A stretch of DNA of 48,002 nucleotides from an uncultured Clostridia bacterium (GTDB lineage: Bacteria; Bacillota; Clostridia; Oscillospirales; Ruminococcaceae): positions 1 through 48,002 of the forward strand of contig CALZUA010000024.1 of NCBI GenBank assembly GCA_945829235.1, read 5' to 3'. Positions 19,816 through 25,727 of the stretch are shown here, piece by piece; the stretch's first letter is position 1, and the number at the start of each line of letters is the position of its first letter. The notes beneath the pieces are model-generated. The model was not told the DNA's origin and ran no database searches. It worked only from the letters and a program-made list of their open reading frames with translations. Position numbers and translations under genes: made by a program.

Positions 19816-19844
19816 TTGATTTATTTTAGTGAATAATGTATAAT
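19816..19844 (+). promoter_or_regulatory. Sigma-A-type promoter for the PilZ-cyclase block
   Basis: TTGATT, 17 bp spacer, TATAAT, ending 20 bp before the PilZ gene GTG start. AT-rich surroundings. It separates the c-di-GMP block from the alaS-rluA run. Confidence 0.8.
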
Positions 19845-19864
19845 GTTAGAAGGGTTATTTTGCG

Positions 19865-20590
19865 GTGACGAGCGTTTTCGGTTGCCGGAAAAAATTGTAC
19901 ATAAAGGGTTTGGTGCGGTTGCTGTTCGGAGGAAAGGTTATAAAGGTCGAGTTGCTCGATGATAAGGGCAAGCTCATTTTCACGGCTGAGAAGAATTTCG
20001 TGTTGCCGAAGAATATGGACGATGACGACAGCATCGTCATTTTCAAAGGTAAAAACCTTCCCGATTTGGAGCGCAACGCGATTGTTTCCGTCGTTACCAC
20101 GACAAAGGCGAACGACAGAATAAGGTACACGGGCGCGGTTTCCATGTCGATGGATACCCAGCTTAACGTAAAAATCCTCAAAAACAACGAAACTCAGGTT
20201 CTTCAGGAACGCAGGCGGTTCTTCAAGATAAAGATTAACGAAAAGGGCAGGGCGCTTTTCTATGTGCGCGGTGAACAGACCGTGCGCTACGACGAGCCGC
20301 CCGAGATTCAGGTGCTCGACATCAACGTCGGCGGCATTTTCTTCTCGTGTGAAGCCGAGGAGTTTATGGAGGGCGACCTCGTGTGCGTGGACGTTGATTT
20401 GTTCATCGACAGCCCGCTTAACACCGCCGTTAAAATTCTCCGAGTTCAGCGCAACGAGGACGGCTCAATCAAGGGCTACGGGTGCTTGTTTGAGAGCCTC
20501 ACGGGCGCTCAGGAGGATTACATTGGCAGATTTATAATGAAGGTTCAGTCCGAGCAACGCAGAAAAGAAGCGGCAAAGGACGAAATTTGA
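19865..20590 (+). CDS. PilZ domain protein, YcgR-like (candidate c-di-GMP receptor)
   Basis: A 241-residue soluble protein with an N-terminal YcgR-N-like beta domain (about 20-105) and a C-terminal PilZ domain. The ligand motifs are recognisable but altered: QERRRFFKI at 114-122 (RxxxR with Lys121 for the second Arg) and LDINVGGIFF at 151-160 (D-x-N-x-x-G where S is usual). Family knowledge says these positions bind c-di-GMP; the substitutions are conservative, so binding is likely but unproven. The GTG start has AGAAGGG about 10 bases upstream. The diguanylate cyclase gene begins 38 bp later, supporting a shared signal. Confidence 0.87.
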   Translation: MTSVFGCRKKLYIKGLVRLLFGGKVIKVELLDDKGKLIFTAEKNFVLPKNMDDDDSIVIFKGKNLPDLERNAIVSVVTTTKANDRIRYTGAVSMSMDTQLNVKILKNNETQVLQERRRFFKIKINEKGRALFYVRGEQTVRYDEPPEIQVLDINVGGIFFSCEAEEFMEGDLVCVDVDLFIDSPLNTAVKILRVQRNEDGSIKGYGCLFESLTGAQEDYIGRFIMKVQSEQRRKEAAKDEI

Positions 20591-20628
20591 TTTAAGGATA
20601 TAATTTATTTCATTTAGGGGGAAGAACG

Positions 20629-22629
20629 ATGAAAAAATCCACAATGAAGTATGTGCTGGTAGTTGTTTTGGCTATCTTCGCGCTGGTTCCCGCGATAATT
20701 CTCGGAGTTGTCGGCTCTCTGTCGTATTCGGGATTCAGCAATGACGCGAGGCAGGAAGAGTTCAACACGGTCACTATGTCCAAGGCAGGTACCGTCGGCA
20801 CGGTTTTTGCAGGGTATCTGGGTGACGCAACGATGCTTTCAAAGCTGGATGCGGTTGCCGAGGCGGCTAAAACGGGCGGCGACGGCGCAAGTGCGATTGT
20901 GAAATCCTACGCCGAGAGCAATCCCGATGTTGCCGATGCGCTTGTTCTCAACGCTTCGGGTACGGTTGTGGCATCTGCGGCGGGCGCTGAAAAGGGCGTG
21001 TTCGAGCATTTCTCTTCCGATATGCCCGCGGTTTCCACTCTTTTCTCTTGGGATAAGTACCAGAGCGATGGATTTTTCGTTTCTCGTGAGATAAACAACG
21101 GCTCGGTTGTGGGCTATGTTTGCCTTGTGGTTACACCCGCTTCCGACAGCGCGCTTTCTCAGGCACTTGCCGGAACTTATGTCAACAAAAAGGCGAACCT
21201 CGCGCTTATCGACAGCGAGGGCAACACCATCAATTTTGACGGCAAAGGCACTACAATGAAGGCAGGACAGCTTGACGGCGCGATTGCCGGCAAGAAGGGC
21301 GATTTCTTCAAGAATAACGTGTCGGGCGTTACCGCGCGCGATAATCAGGTTTCCGGTACCGCCGGCAAATATCGCTACATAAGCGGAGTTATCCCTGAGG
21401 TAACAAGTTGGAGATGGCTTGCCGTATGCGATAGCGGCGAGTTTGGCGCGGCTTCTTCGCCTATTGTTCCGCTGATTGTTCTTGCGGTTGTTGCGCTTGT
21501 TATGTGCGCGCTCGGTTTCCTCATCATCACCAAGTTTGTCGGCAAAATGCACGATATGCTCAAGACGATGGACGGAATCACACACGAAAACGGCATTTCC
21601 TCCACTCGTTTCACGGTCAAGAAAAAGGAAGAGAAGAGCGAGCTTGGCGAAATCCAGATCTCGTTCAACGAGTTCCTTGACGAGGTTAAAATCAACTCCG
21701 ACCGTTACCGTACAATTGCAAACTTGTCCGACAATATGCTGTTCGAGTGGGATTTCCACAAGGAACTGATGTACATTTCGGACAATATGCTCCAGAAATT
21801 CGACCTCAAGCCCGATGGTGCAACACTCTCGAACGGACGCTTCCTCGACAGCCTGATGACACCCGAGGACGCGGATAAGTACAAGCGTGATATCAGCGCG
21901 ATGTTGAAAAATCAGAAGGGCTACAACACGCAGTACCAGCTTATGACCAAGAGCGGCACACCGATTTGGGTATCGTTCCGCGCGAACTGCATCACCGACC
22001 GTATCGGTGAACCGCTTCGTGTAATCGGCGTCCTCACCGATATCGATAACGAGAAAAAGGCTGAGATGCAACTCTCCGAGCGTGCTTCGATTGACTTCCT
22101 CTCACAGCTCTACAACCGTAGCACCTTTATCAGAATGCTTACTCAGGAGCTTGACAGACGCGGCCCGAACAAGGTTGCGACAATGTTCATCGACGTCGAT
22201 GACTTCAAGTTCATCAACGACCGCTACGGACACAGCTCGGGCGATGAAGCAATCAAGTTTGTTGCCGATAACATTCGCAAGAAGGTTGATGGACGCGGCG
22301 GTTTCGCGGGACGTTTCGGCGGCGATGAGTTCGTGTTGTGCTACACAAATCAGGAGGATATCGCAAATCTTGAGCAGATTGCGATGGATATTATCGACGA
22401 GCTGTACGTTGGCTTCACGACAGTGGAAGGTACGCTTATCAACGTCAGAGTTTCGATTGGTATTTCTTACTGCCCGCAGCACACAGAGGACGTAAACGAG
22501 CTGATTTCCTTCTCGGATACGGCAATGTACTTCGTAAAGAAGAACGGCAAGACCAACTATCATATTTATATGCCTGAGGACAGCGAGAGCGGCGAATATA
22601 TCGACCCCGAGGGATATCAGGCGAATTGA
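20629..22629 (+). CDS. Membrane diguanylate cyclase with extracellular sensor, PAS and GGDEF
   Basis: A 666-residue protein: membrane segment 8-30; extracytoplasmic sensor about 31-275, Cache-like in form; second membrane segment about 277-298; linker; PAS about 358-478 (...IWVSFRANCITDRIGEPLRVIG...); GGDEF about 485-650. Active site GRFGGDEFVLCY has intact GGDEF at 564-568, and MFIDVDDFKFINDRYGH supplies metal and base-binding residues, so it should make c-di-GMP from two GTP. The inhibitory I-site RxxD normally just upstream reads RGGF, so product inhibition at this site is probably lost. ATG start with AGGGGGAAG upstream. Ligand of the sensor is unknown. Confidence 0.94.
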   Translation: MKKSTMKYVLVVVLAIFALVPAIILGVVGSLSYSGFSNDARQEEFNTVTMSKAGTVGTVFAGYLGDATMLSKLDAVAEAAKTGGDGASAIVKSYAESNPDVADALVLNASGTVVASAAGAEKGVFEHFSSDMPAVSTLFSWDKYQSDGFFVSREINNGSVVGYVCLVVTPASDSALSQALAGTYVNKKANLALIDSEGNTINFDGKGTTMKAGQLDGAIAGKKGDFFKNNVSGVTARDNQVSGTAGKYRYISGVIPEVTSWRWLAVCDSGEFGAASSPIVPLIVLAVVALVMCALGFLIITKFVGKMHDMLKTMDGITHENGISSTRFTVKKKEEKSELGEIQISFNEFLDEVKINSDRYRTIANLSDNMLFEWDFHKELMYISDNMLQKFDLKPDGATLSNGRFLDSLMTPEDADKYKRDISAMLKNQKGYNTQYQLMTKSGTPIWVSFRANCITDRIGEPLRVIGVLTDIDNEKKAEMQLSERASIDFLSQLYNRSTFIRMLTQELDRRGPNKVATMFIDVDDFKFINDRYGHSSGDEAIKFVADNIRKKVDGRGGFAGRFGGDEFVLCYTNQEDIANLEQIAMDIIDELYVGFTTVEGTLINVRVSIGISYCPQHTEDVNELISFSDTAMYFVKKNGKTNYHIYMPEDSESGEYIDPEGYQAN

Positions 22630-22639
22630 CAGAATTTTG

Positions 22640-22680
22640 GTGCGGCGCTTGCAACGCTTTAAAGCGGCAGAGCGCCGCAC
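22640..22680 (+). other. Long hairpin in the cyclase-parA gap
   Basis: GTGCGGCGCT (22640-22649) pairs perfectly with AGCGCCGCAC (22671-22680); an inner CGCTTTAAAGCG can also pair. It lies 10 bp after the cyclase stop, and GGGTATTTTATAG follows, too weak a T-run for a confident terminator. It could be an mRNA processing or partial termination signal. Confidence 0.55.
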
Positions 22681-22710
22681 GGGTATTTTATAGTTCGGAG
22701 GTTTGTTGTT

Positions 22711-23505
22711 TTGGCGAAAATAATTGCAGTGACAAATCAAAAGGGCGGTGTTGGAAAAACCACAACCTGCGCGGCACTTTGCGGCGGACTGTCGCAAATG
22801 GGTTACAAGGTGCTGGCGGTTGACCTCGACCCGCAGGGAAACCTGAGCTTCAGCCTTGGCGTTGAGGTTGAGGACAACTACACGATTTACGATGTGCTGA
22901 AGGACAACTGCGACATTGACGAGGCGATAATTCACGGCGAGCATTGCGATGTTGTGCCGTCGAACATTTTGCTGTCGGGCTTGGAGCTTGAGATGACGGG
23001 CGTTGGCAGAGAGTACGTTCTTCGCGAACAGCTCAATTATGTCAAGAAGGAGTACGATTACATCATTCTTGATACGCCGCCGGCGCTGTCGGTGCTCACG
23101 ATAAACGCGTACACGGCATCGGACGAGCTGATTATCCCGATGTTGTGCGAAATCCTGTCATTACAGGGCATCGCTCAGCTTAAACAGACTATTTTCGCTG
23201 TAAAGCGTTACTACAATAAATCGCTTTGCGTGCGCGGAATACTATTAAATAAGTACAACGGTCGGTACACGCTCACGAAAGAAGTCGAGGAGCTGGCGGA
23301 GATGATTGCCAAACAGCTCGACACCACGATTTTCAACACGAAAATCAGCGCGTGCGTGTCGATAGCCGAAGCGCCCGCTCACGGCGAGAGCATTATCACC
23401 TATTCGCCGAAATCAAAAGGTGCGCTCGAGTTCAAATCGTTCATCAACGAGCTGATTGAGCCGCATAAGTTGAATAAAACCAAGAAAACTGCCGAGGAAA
23501 AATAA
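22711..23505 (+). CDS. ParA/Soj-type ATPase without ParB
   Basis: A 264-residue P-loop ATPase of the ParA/MinD group. The deviant Walker A KGGVGKTT (Lys11, Lys16) with the signature first lysine, VDLDPQGN (about 37-44), and YIILDTPPALSVLT (Walker B region) are intact, so ATP-dependent dimerisation is expected. Such proteins position DNA, protein clusters or surface machines. No parB or parS-like site is seen nearby, and the flanking genes are a c-di-GMP cyclase and a ComFB-like protein, so a cargo role is more likely than chromosome segregation (inference). The start is TTG with GGAGG 9 bases upstream. Confidence 0.9.
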   Translation: MAKIIAVTNQKGGVGKTTTCAALCGGLSQMGYKVLAVDLDPQGNLSFSLGVEVEDNYTIYDVLKDNCDIDEAIIHGEHCDVVPSNILLSGLELEMTGVGREYVLREQLNYVKKEYDYIILDTPPALSVLTINAYTASDELIIPMLCEILSLQGIAQLKQTIFAVKRYYNKSLCVRGILLNKYNGRYTLTKEVEELAEMIAKQLDTTIFNTKISACVSIAEAPAHGESIITYSPKSKGALEFKSFINELIEPHKLNKTKKTAEEK

Positions 23506-23519
23506 GGGAGCTGAAAAAT

Positions 23520-24389
23520 TTGCCGCCGAAAAAGAGTTCCAACGGTTCAGCCAGCCGTGGCGTTGCCGAAACTAAAAATCATTCGACTACCGCCTTTGAG
23601 CAATCGGGGGCGGCGGATTTGACGAGAAAAGCGAGGCGTTCGGACAATGCGGTGAAGAGCGGGAAAAGTTCCGCGAAAGATTCCCCAAAAAGTGTTTCCA
23701 AAAGTTCTGCGAAAGGGGCTTTGAGTTCAACGAACGGCGCTTCGGGTTCAACGAAAGGCGAATCAAGTTCAACAAAGAGCGCTTCTAGTTCAACAAAAAG
23801 TTCACCAAAAGCAGAGAAGGCGAAAACCAATAAATCCGCGAAGTCTTCGGAAAAGGATAAATCTGCAAGCAAACCGATGGTTGCGCTGAAAAAGTCGGGT
23901 GCGGTTTCCAAAAAATACCACAAAGAGCCGAGCGATGACAGCGGAATTTCCTGTAAAACTCCGCAGGTGATGAAGCTTGTTGCCGAGGACAACGGTGAAA
24001 ACGCGGTTATCGCGGCGGGCAAAAGTCGAATTCCCGCGCGGCTCAAGGGCAGAGAACCGCTTTCAAAAATGGTTAAACGGGAAATGCACGGCGATATTTA
24101 CGAGCCGAACGAGGTCGAGGTCGTAAACCTTACGGAACTCGCCGTTCAGTACGAGGCACCGCAGATTTTGGACAGGTTCAACGCGTGCTCGTGCGAAAAA
24201 TGCGTGGCGGTGTTCTCGGAAATGGTGCTGAAAAAAGTTCCCGCGCGGTTCGCGAGGATAACCAAAACCAAAATGGGTATTCGCTCGCGTGAGCTGAACG
24301 GGCGGGTTGAGCCGGTGCGGAAAATGGTTCAGATTACGATGATAAGGGAGCTTATCGGGAGCAAAAAGCGTATTTTTCATGATGAATAA
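23520..24389 (+). CDS. ComFB-like protein with a long Ser/Lys-rich N-terminal region
   Basis: A 289-residue protein. Residues 1-150 are low complexity, basic and built from SSTK-like repeats (about 70-95), probably disordered. Residues about 180-270 resemble the ComFB family: NLTELAVQYEAPQILDRF, then CSCEKC (Cys223, Cys225, Cys228), then a helix and LKKVPARFARI. ComFB-family proteins in cyanobacteria have been reported as c-di-GMP receptors, which fits the neighbouring cyclase and PilZ genes. The start is TTG with AAGGGAG about 9 bases upstream, 14 bp after the parA-like stop. The ComFB assignment rests on pattern recognition and needs a profile search. Confidence 0.72.
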   Translation: MPPKKSSNGSASRGVAETKNHSTTAFEQSGAADLTRKARRSDNAVKSGKSSAKDSPKSVSKSSAKGALSSTNGASGSTKGESSSTKSASSSTKSSPKAEKAKTNKSAKSSEKDKSASKPMVALKKSGAVSKKYHKEPSDDSGISCKTPQVMKLVAEDNGENAVIAAGKSRIPARLKGREPLSKMVKREMHGDIYEPNEVEVVNLTELAVQYEAPQILDRFNACSCEKCVAVFSEMVLKKVPARFARITKTKMGIRSRELNGRVEPVRKMVQITMIRELIGSKKRIFHDE

Positions 24390-24394
24390 ATTTT

Positions 24395-24437
24395 GCAAAA
24401 TCACGCAAAATAATATAGCGTATTGTAAAAATTTTGC
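24395..24437. promoter_or_regulatory. Possible operator: three GCAAAAT boxes before the MreB gene
   Basis: GCAAAAT at 24395-24401 and 24405-24411 (10 bp apart, same face of the helix) and inverted ATTTTGC at 24431-24437. No convincing promoter hexamers were found between the ComFB-like stop and the MreB start, so the meaning is uncertain. Confidence 0.3.
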
Positions 24438-24461
24438 CTTAAAATACAGGGAGTAATACAA

Positions 24462-25478
24462 ATGTCACTTGATATCGGAATAGATTTGGGAACTGCAAAT
24501 ATTATCATCACGATTGCGGGACGCGGAATTGTGCTGAACGAGCCGTCGGTTGTCGCGTATGACCGCAAGAAAAAAGCGGTCGTGGCGGTCGGTACCGAGG
24601 CGTACAAAATGATTGGCAGAACGCCCGAGTATATCGTCGCGGTGCGCCCGCTCAAGGACGGCGTGATTTCGGACAACGATATGACGCAGGCGATGATTAA
24701 GGAGTTCATCAACATCGTAAACGGCGGTTTTATGGTGAAGCCGCGGGTTGTGCTTTGCGTGCCGAGCTCGGTCACGGACGTTGAGCGCAGGGCGGTTGTC
24801 GAGGCGGCGGTTTCGGCGGGTGCAAGAAAGGTGTACCTTATCGAGGAGCCGATTGCGGCGCTTATCGGCGCGGGCGTTGATATCTCGAAGCCGAACGGGA
24901 CGATGGTTGTTGACATCGGCGGCGGCACGTCGGACGTTGCGATTGTTTCGTTCAACGGCATCGTGCAGTCAAGATCGGTGAAGATGGCGGGAAATAAGTT
25001 TGACGCGGCGATAATTCGCCTGATAACGCAGAAATACAAGATTTTAATCGGTGAAAAAACCGCGGAAAAGGCGAAGAAGGAAATCGCAAACGTTTTTAAC
25101 CCGACCGGCGAAAAGAAGATGACAATTCGCGGCAGACACCTACTGAAAGGGCTTCCCGAGAGCGTTGAGATATCGGACATCGATATGTATGAGGCGCTTC
25201 ACGAGAACGCGATGGAGATCGTGGAGCAGGTGAAGCTGACGCTGGAGTCAACGCCGCCGGAGCTGGTTGGCGATATTTTGTCGAACGGGATTTTGCTCAC
25301 GGGCGGAGGAGCGCTGTTGGGCGGGCTTCCGGAGCTGATTTCGGAGAACGTTGGGGCACCGTGTTTTGTTGCCGAGAACCCGATTGAGTGCGTGGCGAGG
25401 GGCGTTGACCTGTCGTTCAATATGTCGAGCAAGTTGCTTGATGGGTTTGAGCAGGTGTCGCTGTACGGATTTAAGTGA
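24462..25478 (+). CDS. mreB: MreB/Mbl family actin-like protein
   Basis: A 338-residue bacterial actin. Nucleotide-binding motifs are intact: DIGIDLGTANIIIT (phosphate 1), MVVDIGGGTSDVAIV (phosphate 2), IEEPIAALIGAG, and LLTGGGALLGGLPELI (adenosine). It should polymerise on the membrane and guide cell-wall synthesis. It is an orphan: mreC, mreD and rodA are not adjacent, and its upstream neighbours are the ParA-like and ComFB-like genes, so it may be Mbl/MreBH-like or specialised. ATG start with AGGGAG upstream. A strong terminator follows 45 bp after the stop. Confidence 0.93.
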   Translation: MSLDIGIDLGTANIIITIAGRGIVLNEPSVVAYDRKKKAVVAVGTEAYKMIGRTPEYIVAVRPLKDGVISDNDMTQAMIKEFINIVNGGFMVKPRVVLCVPSSVTDVERRAVVEAAVSAGARKVYLIEEPIAALIGAGVDISKPNGTMVVDIGGGTSDVAIVSFNGIVQSRSVKMAGNKFDAAIIRLITQKYKILIGEKTAEKAKKEIANVFNPTGEKKMTIRGRHLLKGLPESVEISDIDMYEALHENAMEIVEQVKLTLESTPPELVGDILSNGILLTGGGALLGGLPELISENVGAPCFVAENPIECVARGVDLSFNMSSKLLDGFEQVSLYGFK

Positions 25479-25523
25479 CTTTTAGCAATATTTTGCACGA
25501 TTATTACAGTTTGTATAACTTCT

Positions 25524-25553
25524 GGGTAGCTTCGGCTACCCGATTTTGTTTTT
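25524..25553 (+). terminator. Rho-independent terminator after mreB
   Basis: GGGTAGC-TTCG-GCTACCC followed by GATTTTGTTTTT: a perfect 7 bp stem with a stable UUCG tetraloop and a T-rich tail. It closes the c-di-GMP/ParA/MreB block. Confidence 0.93.
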
Positions 25554-25564
25554 GGGGGAATAAT

Positions 25565-25695
25565 TGCAAAGCGATAATCGAGCACCGCGAAGCGAAAAAA
25601 GTCTTTTTGGAAGTCCAGAAACCTTTTTCTTCAGAAAAAGGTTTCTGGCCGCCGGAGGCACTGGAGCGAAGCGACCACTAGGCGCGAAGCGCCAA
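25565..25695 (+). repeat. Dispersed repeat family A, copy 5
   Basis: Downstream of the mreB terminator in sense orientation. It has the best formed long hairpin: 25615-25630 pairs with 25633-25648 over 16 bp without a mismatch. It ends with GGAGCGAAGCG and GGCGCGAAGCGCC modules. Confidence 0.9.
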
Positions 25696-25727
25696 AATCA
25701 AAATTAAACACGAACAACCTCCCCAAA

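Follow-up and report, generated by a model that had tools for sequence, protein, structure and literature searches.

The window analysed here, a stretch of 48,002 nucleotides (nt) from an uncultured Clostridia bacterium of the family Ruminococcaceae (contig CALZUA010000024.1), carries a compact block of genes for a PilZ protein, a GGDEF diguanylate cyclase, a ParA ATPase, a ComFB-like protein and an MreB/Mbl-type actin. The first four form a unit that is conserved together with the promoter in front of it, and the association of ParA and ComFB with flagella is well supported. On balance, the unit is probably a flagellar control operon tuned by cyclic di-GMP (c-di-GMP), with the ParA-ComFB pair doing an FlhG-like positioning or counting job. 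This reading is based on the conserved order and promoter, the co-occurrence of ComFB and of the pair with flagella, the linkage to flagellar genes in relatives, the loss of PilZ, ParA and ComFB along with flagellin in one clade, the lack of above-cut-off FlhF in the family genomes drawn, and a ParA that is not FlhG. A preliminary description of the window had proposed a c-di-GMP-type unit serving an unnamed surface or wall machine. The four genes do stand together and the surface machine is the flagellum, while the part given to MreB and wall synthesis was not upheld.

Results

Conservation of the gene unit and its promoter

An ortholog of the window ParA (at least 76% identity) is present in 37 of the 43 genus genomes searched, in two of them as fragments, and 20 of the 37 were chosen and fetched with their flanks. 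The order PilZ-GGDEF-ParA-ComFB is found in all 20 and is followed by MreB in 14, so the gene order is shared beyond the window's own genome. The 36 named loci, which overlap the 20, come from bins of uncultured Clostridia, Oscillospiraceae or Ruminococcaceae, several with titles pointing to deer colon or rabbit. The four genes are found in 33 of these loci and all five in 23; the other three are truncated at the left by the end of a contig.

The five open reading frames, all on the forward strand, are separated by 38 nt (PilZ/GGDEF), 81 nt (GGDEF/ParA), 14 nt (ParA/ComFB) and 72 nt (ComFB/MreB), and the promoter and UUCG-loop terminator of the preliminary description were likewise borne out (Table 1). 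Taken alone, the scans are near chance, with 13 promoters found against 8.5 in shuffles and 13 terminators against 17.0; the block promoter scores 10/12, the 95th percentile of shuffles. Of 34 loci compared (the window and 33 named relatives), 33 have the pattern TTGAT-N18/19-TATAAT upstream of PilZ, and in the single locus without it, L180, just 91 bases are searchable. Conservation exceeds the two hexamers and includes TTGATTTATTT...ATATTGTATAAT and a leader near AAGGATTATTC (window 19816-19870; L139-L142), even where PilZ is lost. A regulator may bind in this conserved promoter and leader region. A sigma-28 promoter upstream of PilZ was rejected, the scores being 7-9/12 against a shuffled upstream mean of 8.1 and a 95th percentile of 9.

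Association with flagella

The ParA ortholog is missing in six of the 43 genus genomes, namely G157 and G170 (76% and 73% complete) and G094, G177, G186 and G187 (96-99% complete). The latter four, together with G148 (75% complete), are also the five genus genomes without a match to Flagellin_N; 38 have a match, 37 of them over the cut-off, and in eight the match is no more than weak (E 7e-8 to 1.5e-5) and may be to hook proteins. The locus of the four is rluD-GGDEF-MreB, with PilZ, ParA and ComFB gone and the promoter and leader kept upstream of GGDEF. They cluster on the MreB tree, so a single loss event suffices.

Across 148 genomes of the family, the ComFB profile matches 49 and FlhA is over its cut-off in 50. 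Both are found in 47 genomes and neither in 96, leaving ComFB without FlhA in G047 and G060 and FlhA without ComFB in G064, G068 and G087 (Fisher 2e-32, kinship ignored). The presence of FlhA varies within seven of the 25 genera sampled twice; in 7/7, ComFB and the pair vary with it (sign test 0.008), two of the seven comparisons depending on genomes that are 64% and 78% complete. ParA lies directly upstream of ComFB (same strand, at most 900 nt from the ComFB match) in 44 of the 49 ComFB-bearing genomes, the exceptions being G015, G016, G023, G053 and G060. In 20 family neighbourhoods drawn from the 30 best matches, 15 have flg or fli genes, one an flhB-like gene with che genes, one a receptor gene only and three none of these. 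The pair is often found beside flgB-fliF-fliG or flgK-flgL.

FlhF and FlhG in the family and the class

FlhF and FlhG set the place and number of flagella in other bacteria. FlhF (TIGR03499, cut-off 174 bits) is over the cut-off in none of the 148 family genomes; the best match has 93 bits, and such matches are presumably related signal recognition particle (SRP) GTPases. Matches below the cut-off are found in 14 of 14 control genomes, and two controls pass it. In 391 genomes of the class, FlhF is over the cut-off in 133 and matches at 1e-32 in 134, of which 133 are among the 147 genomes with FlhA. The 14 genomes with FlhA and without FlhF are two of the family (G000, the window's genome, and G015) and twelve others. 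In three of the twelve (G306, G347 and G430), the ParA-ComFB pair is located close to flagellar genes; the other nine have no pair in the regions looked at. No ComFB match is found in four of the nine (G199, G237, G343 and G558), and the remaining five (G278, G371, G375, G481 and G532) have short ComFB genes with no ParA adjoining. The pair as a stand-in for FlhF everywhere was rejected, the nine genomes speaking against a universal replacement.

The order flhA-flhF-flhG is found in 13 of 13 FlhF-bearing Clostridia looked at. With no flhF-flhG slot, flhA adjoins fliA in G000, G051, G140, G306, G347 and G430. The flanks of ComFB were read in 29 of the best ComFB-matching class genomes outside the family. 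ParA is beside ComFB only in G347 and G430, and the other 27 have an FlhF match at 1e-32 (G549 just below the cut-off) and short ComFB genes. By eye, the short ComFB genes of other Clostridia (L204-L232) lie beside pilus-type, aroK/aroQ-like or rpsB-like genes; other roles are suggested for them.

The ParA ATPase

The window ParA has a deviant Walker A motif (KGGVGKT) and lies on the ParA/Soj side of the tree. Among 52 ATPases it joins the Soj-like ParA proteins and is separated from FlhG and MinD (100/99), and its closest solved chains are ParA/Soj, with McdA more distant. The tree does not establish the ParAs of the pair as one clade versus Soj (41% of bootstraps). Two arginines of all seven Soj-like rows are R or K in 0 of 29 pair rows, some other basic positions being kept. 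In 13 other Clostridia, FlhG starts with a motif of the (M)DQAxxLR type and in most cases has an amphipathic end. Both are missing from the window ParA, which has no flhF neighbour and falls outside the FlhG clade. Judged by its sequence, it is a Soj-like ParA and not FlhG, and a relocated FlhG was ruled out by the tree and the termini. No ParB partner was found beside ParA, the gene downstream being ComFB-like in the 44 of 49 genomes, so the protein was taken to work in a ParA-like manner and was not filed as a chromosome-partition ParA.

The ComFB-like protein

The single window protein matches Pfam ComFB at 14.9 bits (E 0.028, cut-off 25) and its trimmed domain at 16.4 bits (E 0.0093). The ComFB assignment made earlier is below the Pfam cut-off for the protein singly but gains support from the relatives' profile and from the zinc ligands. 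Of 30 aligned rows, 13, among them that of the window, match Pfam ComFB at E<=0.01 (best 3.2e-18), and a profile of all aligned rows retrieves the solved structure of B. subtilis ComFB, 4WAI, at 9.7e-5. A single-sequence search found ComFB in 12 of the 148 family genomes only, the window's included, and the A1 profile was used instead. The zinc site of ComFB is given in the accessible text of PMC4381287 as three close Cys and a distal Cys or His. Residues C82, C84, C87 and H146 of A1 are invariant in 30/30 rows and are presumed to be the zinc ligands; they are C223, C225, C228 and H287 in the window protein and C25, C27, C30 and C88 in B. subtilis ComFB. The best structural matches of the model are ComFB and CdgR, with modest scores. 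According to the accessible parts of two reports, cyanobacterial ComFB/CdgR binds c-di-AMP and c-di-GMP (PMC12313861) and the CdgR dimer binds two c-di-GMP (PMC13075795).

The protein has a tail of 145 residues with 30 K/R and 12 D/E. In the motif behind the tail, K-T-P-Q-V-M-[RK]-L, five positions (T, P, V, M, L) show no variation across 20/20 and 37/37 rows. Distant members have short basic starts and one of two related motifs in 71 of 84 rows by regular expression, 51 of the K-T-x-x-V-M type and 20 of the D-K-x-x-M-F-x-K-I-M-P type; some genomes stand twice in these rows, and the 13 rows missed include L240 and L241, where the motif is readable by eye. Stimulation of ParA through a basic N-terminal peptide is common among its partners. 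By this likeness, the tail and the KTPQVMKL motif are a candidate ParA-binding peptide, a lead and not a test.

Two further ComFB genes were noted. The window's genome has a second, ordinary short one (L152:7627-7944, G000:C17), by eye near recR- and dnaX-like genes. In L283 (G126) a 610-residue open frame behind ParA, with the ComFB domain near its end, is an enlarged form of the adaptor.

The PilZ and GGDEF proteins

The PilZ model has a mean predicted local distance difference test score of 80 and a predicted template modelling (TM) score of 0.51. Its best Foldseek match is MotI/DgrA (5vx6; E 5.3e-7, probability 1.00, 11-12% identity), followed by VCA0042, MrkH and YcgR. The MotI match spans two domains at a TM score of 0.37-0.42 and a root-mean-square deviation of 12.7, the domain orientation being uncertain. 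A sequence search of the PDB with PilZ gave no match to 0.1. MotI is the motility inhibitor of B. subtilis, and a model closest to MotI suits a motor brake. The usual c-di-GMP motifs of PilZ are RxxxR and [DN]xSxxG; R117xxxK121 (RRRFFK) and D-I-N-[VI]-G-G (DINVGG in the window) are found in 34/34 rows and deviate slightly from them. The GGDEF motif is intact in the window cyclase and also in the four flagellum-less genomes, so GGDEF must have other work too.

Features of the block

The PilZ start is probably the GTG at 19913, behind AAAGGG by eye. Between the terminator and mraZ (window 25600-25700) there is inverted-repeat-like sequence with runs of GCGAAGCG.

Table 1. Coordinates of the features of the block in the window
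Feature	Position	Strand	Remarks
Promoter TTGATT-N17-TATAAT, head of block	19816-19844	+	motif scan; recurs in relatives
PilZ gene	19865-20590	+	Pfam PilZ 1.8e-9; two-domain model, best solved match MotI/DgrA
PAS-GGDEF diguanylate cyclase gene, membrane	20629-22629	+	Pfam GGDEF 9.2e-35; membrane segments by eye
ParA ATPase gene, Soj/ParA type	22711-23505	+	Pfam AAA_31/ParA 1.7e-57
ComFB-like gene	23520-24389	+	Lys/Ser-rich tail, KTPQVMKL motif, C-terminal ComFB domain
Codons of KTPQVMKL motif (ComFB-like gene)	23955-23978	+	conserved; candidate ParA-contact peptide
MreB/Mbl-type actin gene	24462-25478	+	Pfam MreB_Mbl 3.4e-128
TTCG-loop intrinsic terminator, behind MreB	25523-25542	+	terminator scan

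Discussion

In the proposed flagellar control operon, the GGDEF enzyme would make c-di-GMP, the PilZ protein would act on the motor like MotI, and ParA with ATP would build up a gradient or a patch at the pole. As a dimeric ParA partner, the ComFB-like protein would contact ParA by means of its basic tail and the K-T-x-x-V-M-x-L motif, and its ComFB domain would sense a cyclic dinucleotide. With this dinucleotide as input, the two proteins would determine where flagella (or basal-body or chemoreceptor units) are placed, or how many there are. Both the FlhF-FlhG replacement and a spatial mechanism gated by a cyclic dinucleotide are what we infer. A more specific form is tentative and rather doubtful as a whole. 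In it, the ComFB-like protein would be a gated ParA adaptor, with a basic N-terminus that stimulates ParA fused to a receptor domain for c-di-GMP/c-di-AMP, and the pair would have taken over flagellar placement and number from FlhF-FlhG in most flagellated members of the family and a few relatives.

ParA-type proteins such as ParC in Vibrio and PpfA in Rhodobacter position chemoreceptor arrays or cytoplasmic chemotaxis clusters, and the pair could position such structures rather than the flagellum itself. The same co-occurrence with flagella would be expected, and chemotaxis genes are found near some pairs (cheA-cheW-cheR-cheB in L120, receptor genes in L118, L119 and L133, and che genes in L233). 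The commonest neighbours are however basal-body or hook genes (flgB/flgC/fliF or flgK/flgL), in 15 of the 20 neighbourhoods, and no FlhF is over the cut-off in the family draw, which makes this alternative unlikely. Improbable as well is a non-spatial role in which ComFB and ParA would regulate late export or the expression of flagellar genes. It would resemble that of CdgR in Anabaena, which in the accessible text of PMC13075795 acts via the transcription factor DevH. In line with such a role, flgK/flgL lie divergently from ParA-ComFB in 8 of the 20 family neighbourhoods, joined in L118 by flgM. Against it, ParA-type ATPases are generally positioning enzymes, and the basic tail and motif resemble a ParA-partner peptide.

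That the c-di-GMP receptors, ParA and MreB form a single machine placing wall synthesis, the model of the preliminary description, is very improbable. It agrees with the tight arrangement of the genes, seen in the window and 14 of the 20 genus genomes fetched, and with the division and wall cluster that follows the block in the window. Among the loci fetched, however, mraZ is behind MreB only in G156 (L037, L158), the window's nearest relative. MreB does not adjoin the block in 6 of the 20, and is 91-92% identical in the four genomes that have lost flagellin, PilZ, ParA and ComFB. MreB as a working part was rejected on these two grounds; it seems to be a co-located passenger, a neighbour of the unit. 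A second MreB, 54% identical to that of the block, is found elsewhere in the window's genome. Unrelated genes brought under one promoter by chance, with which the window's order alone would be compatible, are hardly credible and largely refuted by conservation, ParA being just upstream of ComFB in 44 of 49 family genomes despite varied surroundings.

To our knowledge, flagellar placement and counting without FlhF and FlhG is an open question. ParA-ComFB is a specific, conserved two-gene candidate for this task, and a natural deletion in one clade matches the loss of the flagellum. If the flagellar control reading is true, a second messenger is linked directly to a ParA positioning ATPase, and ComFB has a function beyond competence, pili and cell size. 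No report pairing ComFB with ParA in flagella was found in the open-licence literature, represented mostly by titles and the starts of abstracts.

Comparison with known systems

The pair shares with FlhF-FlhG a deviant-Walker-A ATPase tied to flagella. It differs in having no above-cut-off FlhF, a Soj-like ParA without the MDQAxxLR start or amphipathic end, and a ComFB-like gene neighbour in place of an SRP-type GTPase. The window PilZ has the two-domain architecture of the motor-brake proteins MotI/DgrA and YcgR, with MotI as its best structural match, but has 11-12% identity and carries RRRFFK and DINVGG instead of the usual motifs. Known ComFB/CdgR proteins act in competence, pili or cell size, as far as the accessible parts of PMC12313861 and PMC13075795 go. 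The window protein is like these receptors in its zinc ligands (C-x-C-x2-C and a distal His/Cys) and in its best, modestly scoring structural matches, and unlike them in its long basic tail with a conserved motif, its ParA neighbour and its flagellar link. As in the ParA cargo systems of Soj, McdA, ParC and PpfA, a ParA ATPase gene adjoins that of a candidate adaptor; here, in contrast, the adaptor has a domain of the cyclic-dinucleotide-receptor type and the cargo would be flagellar.
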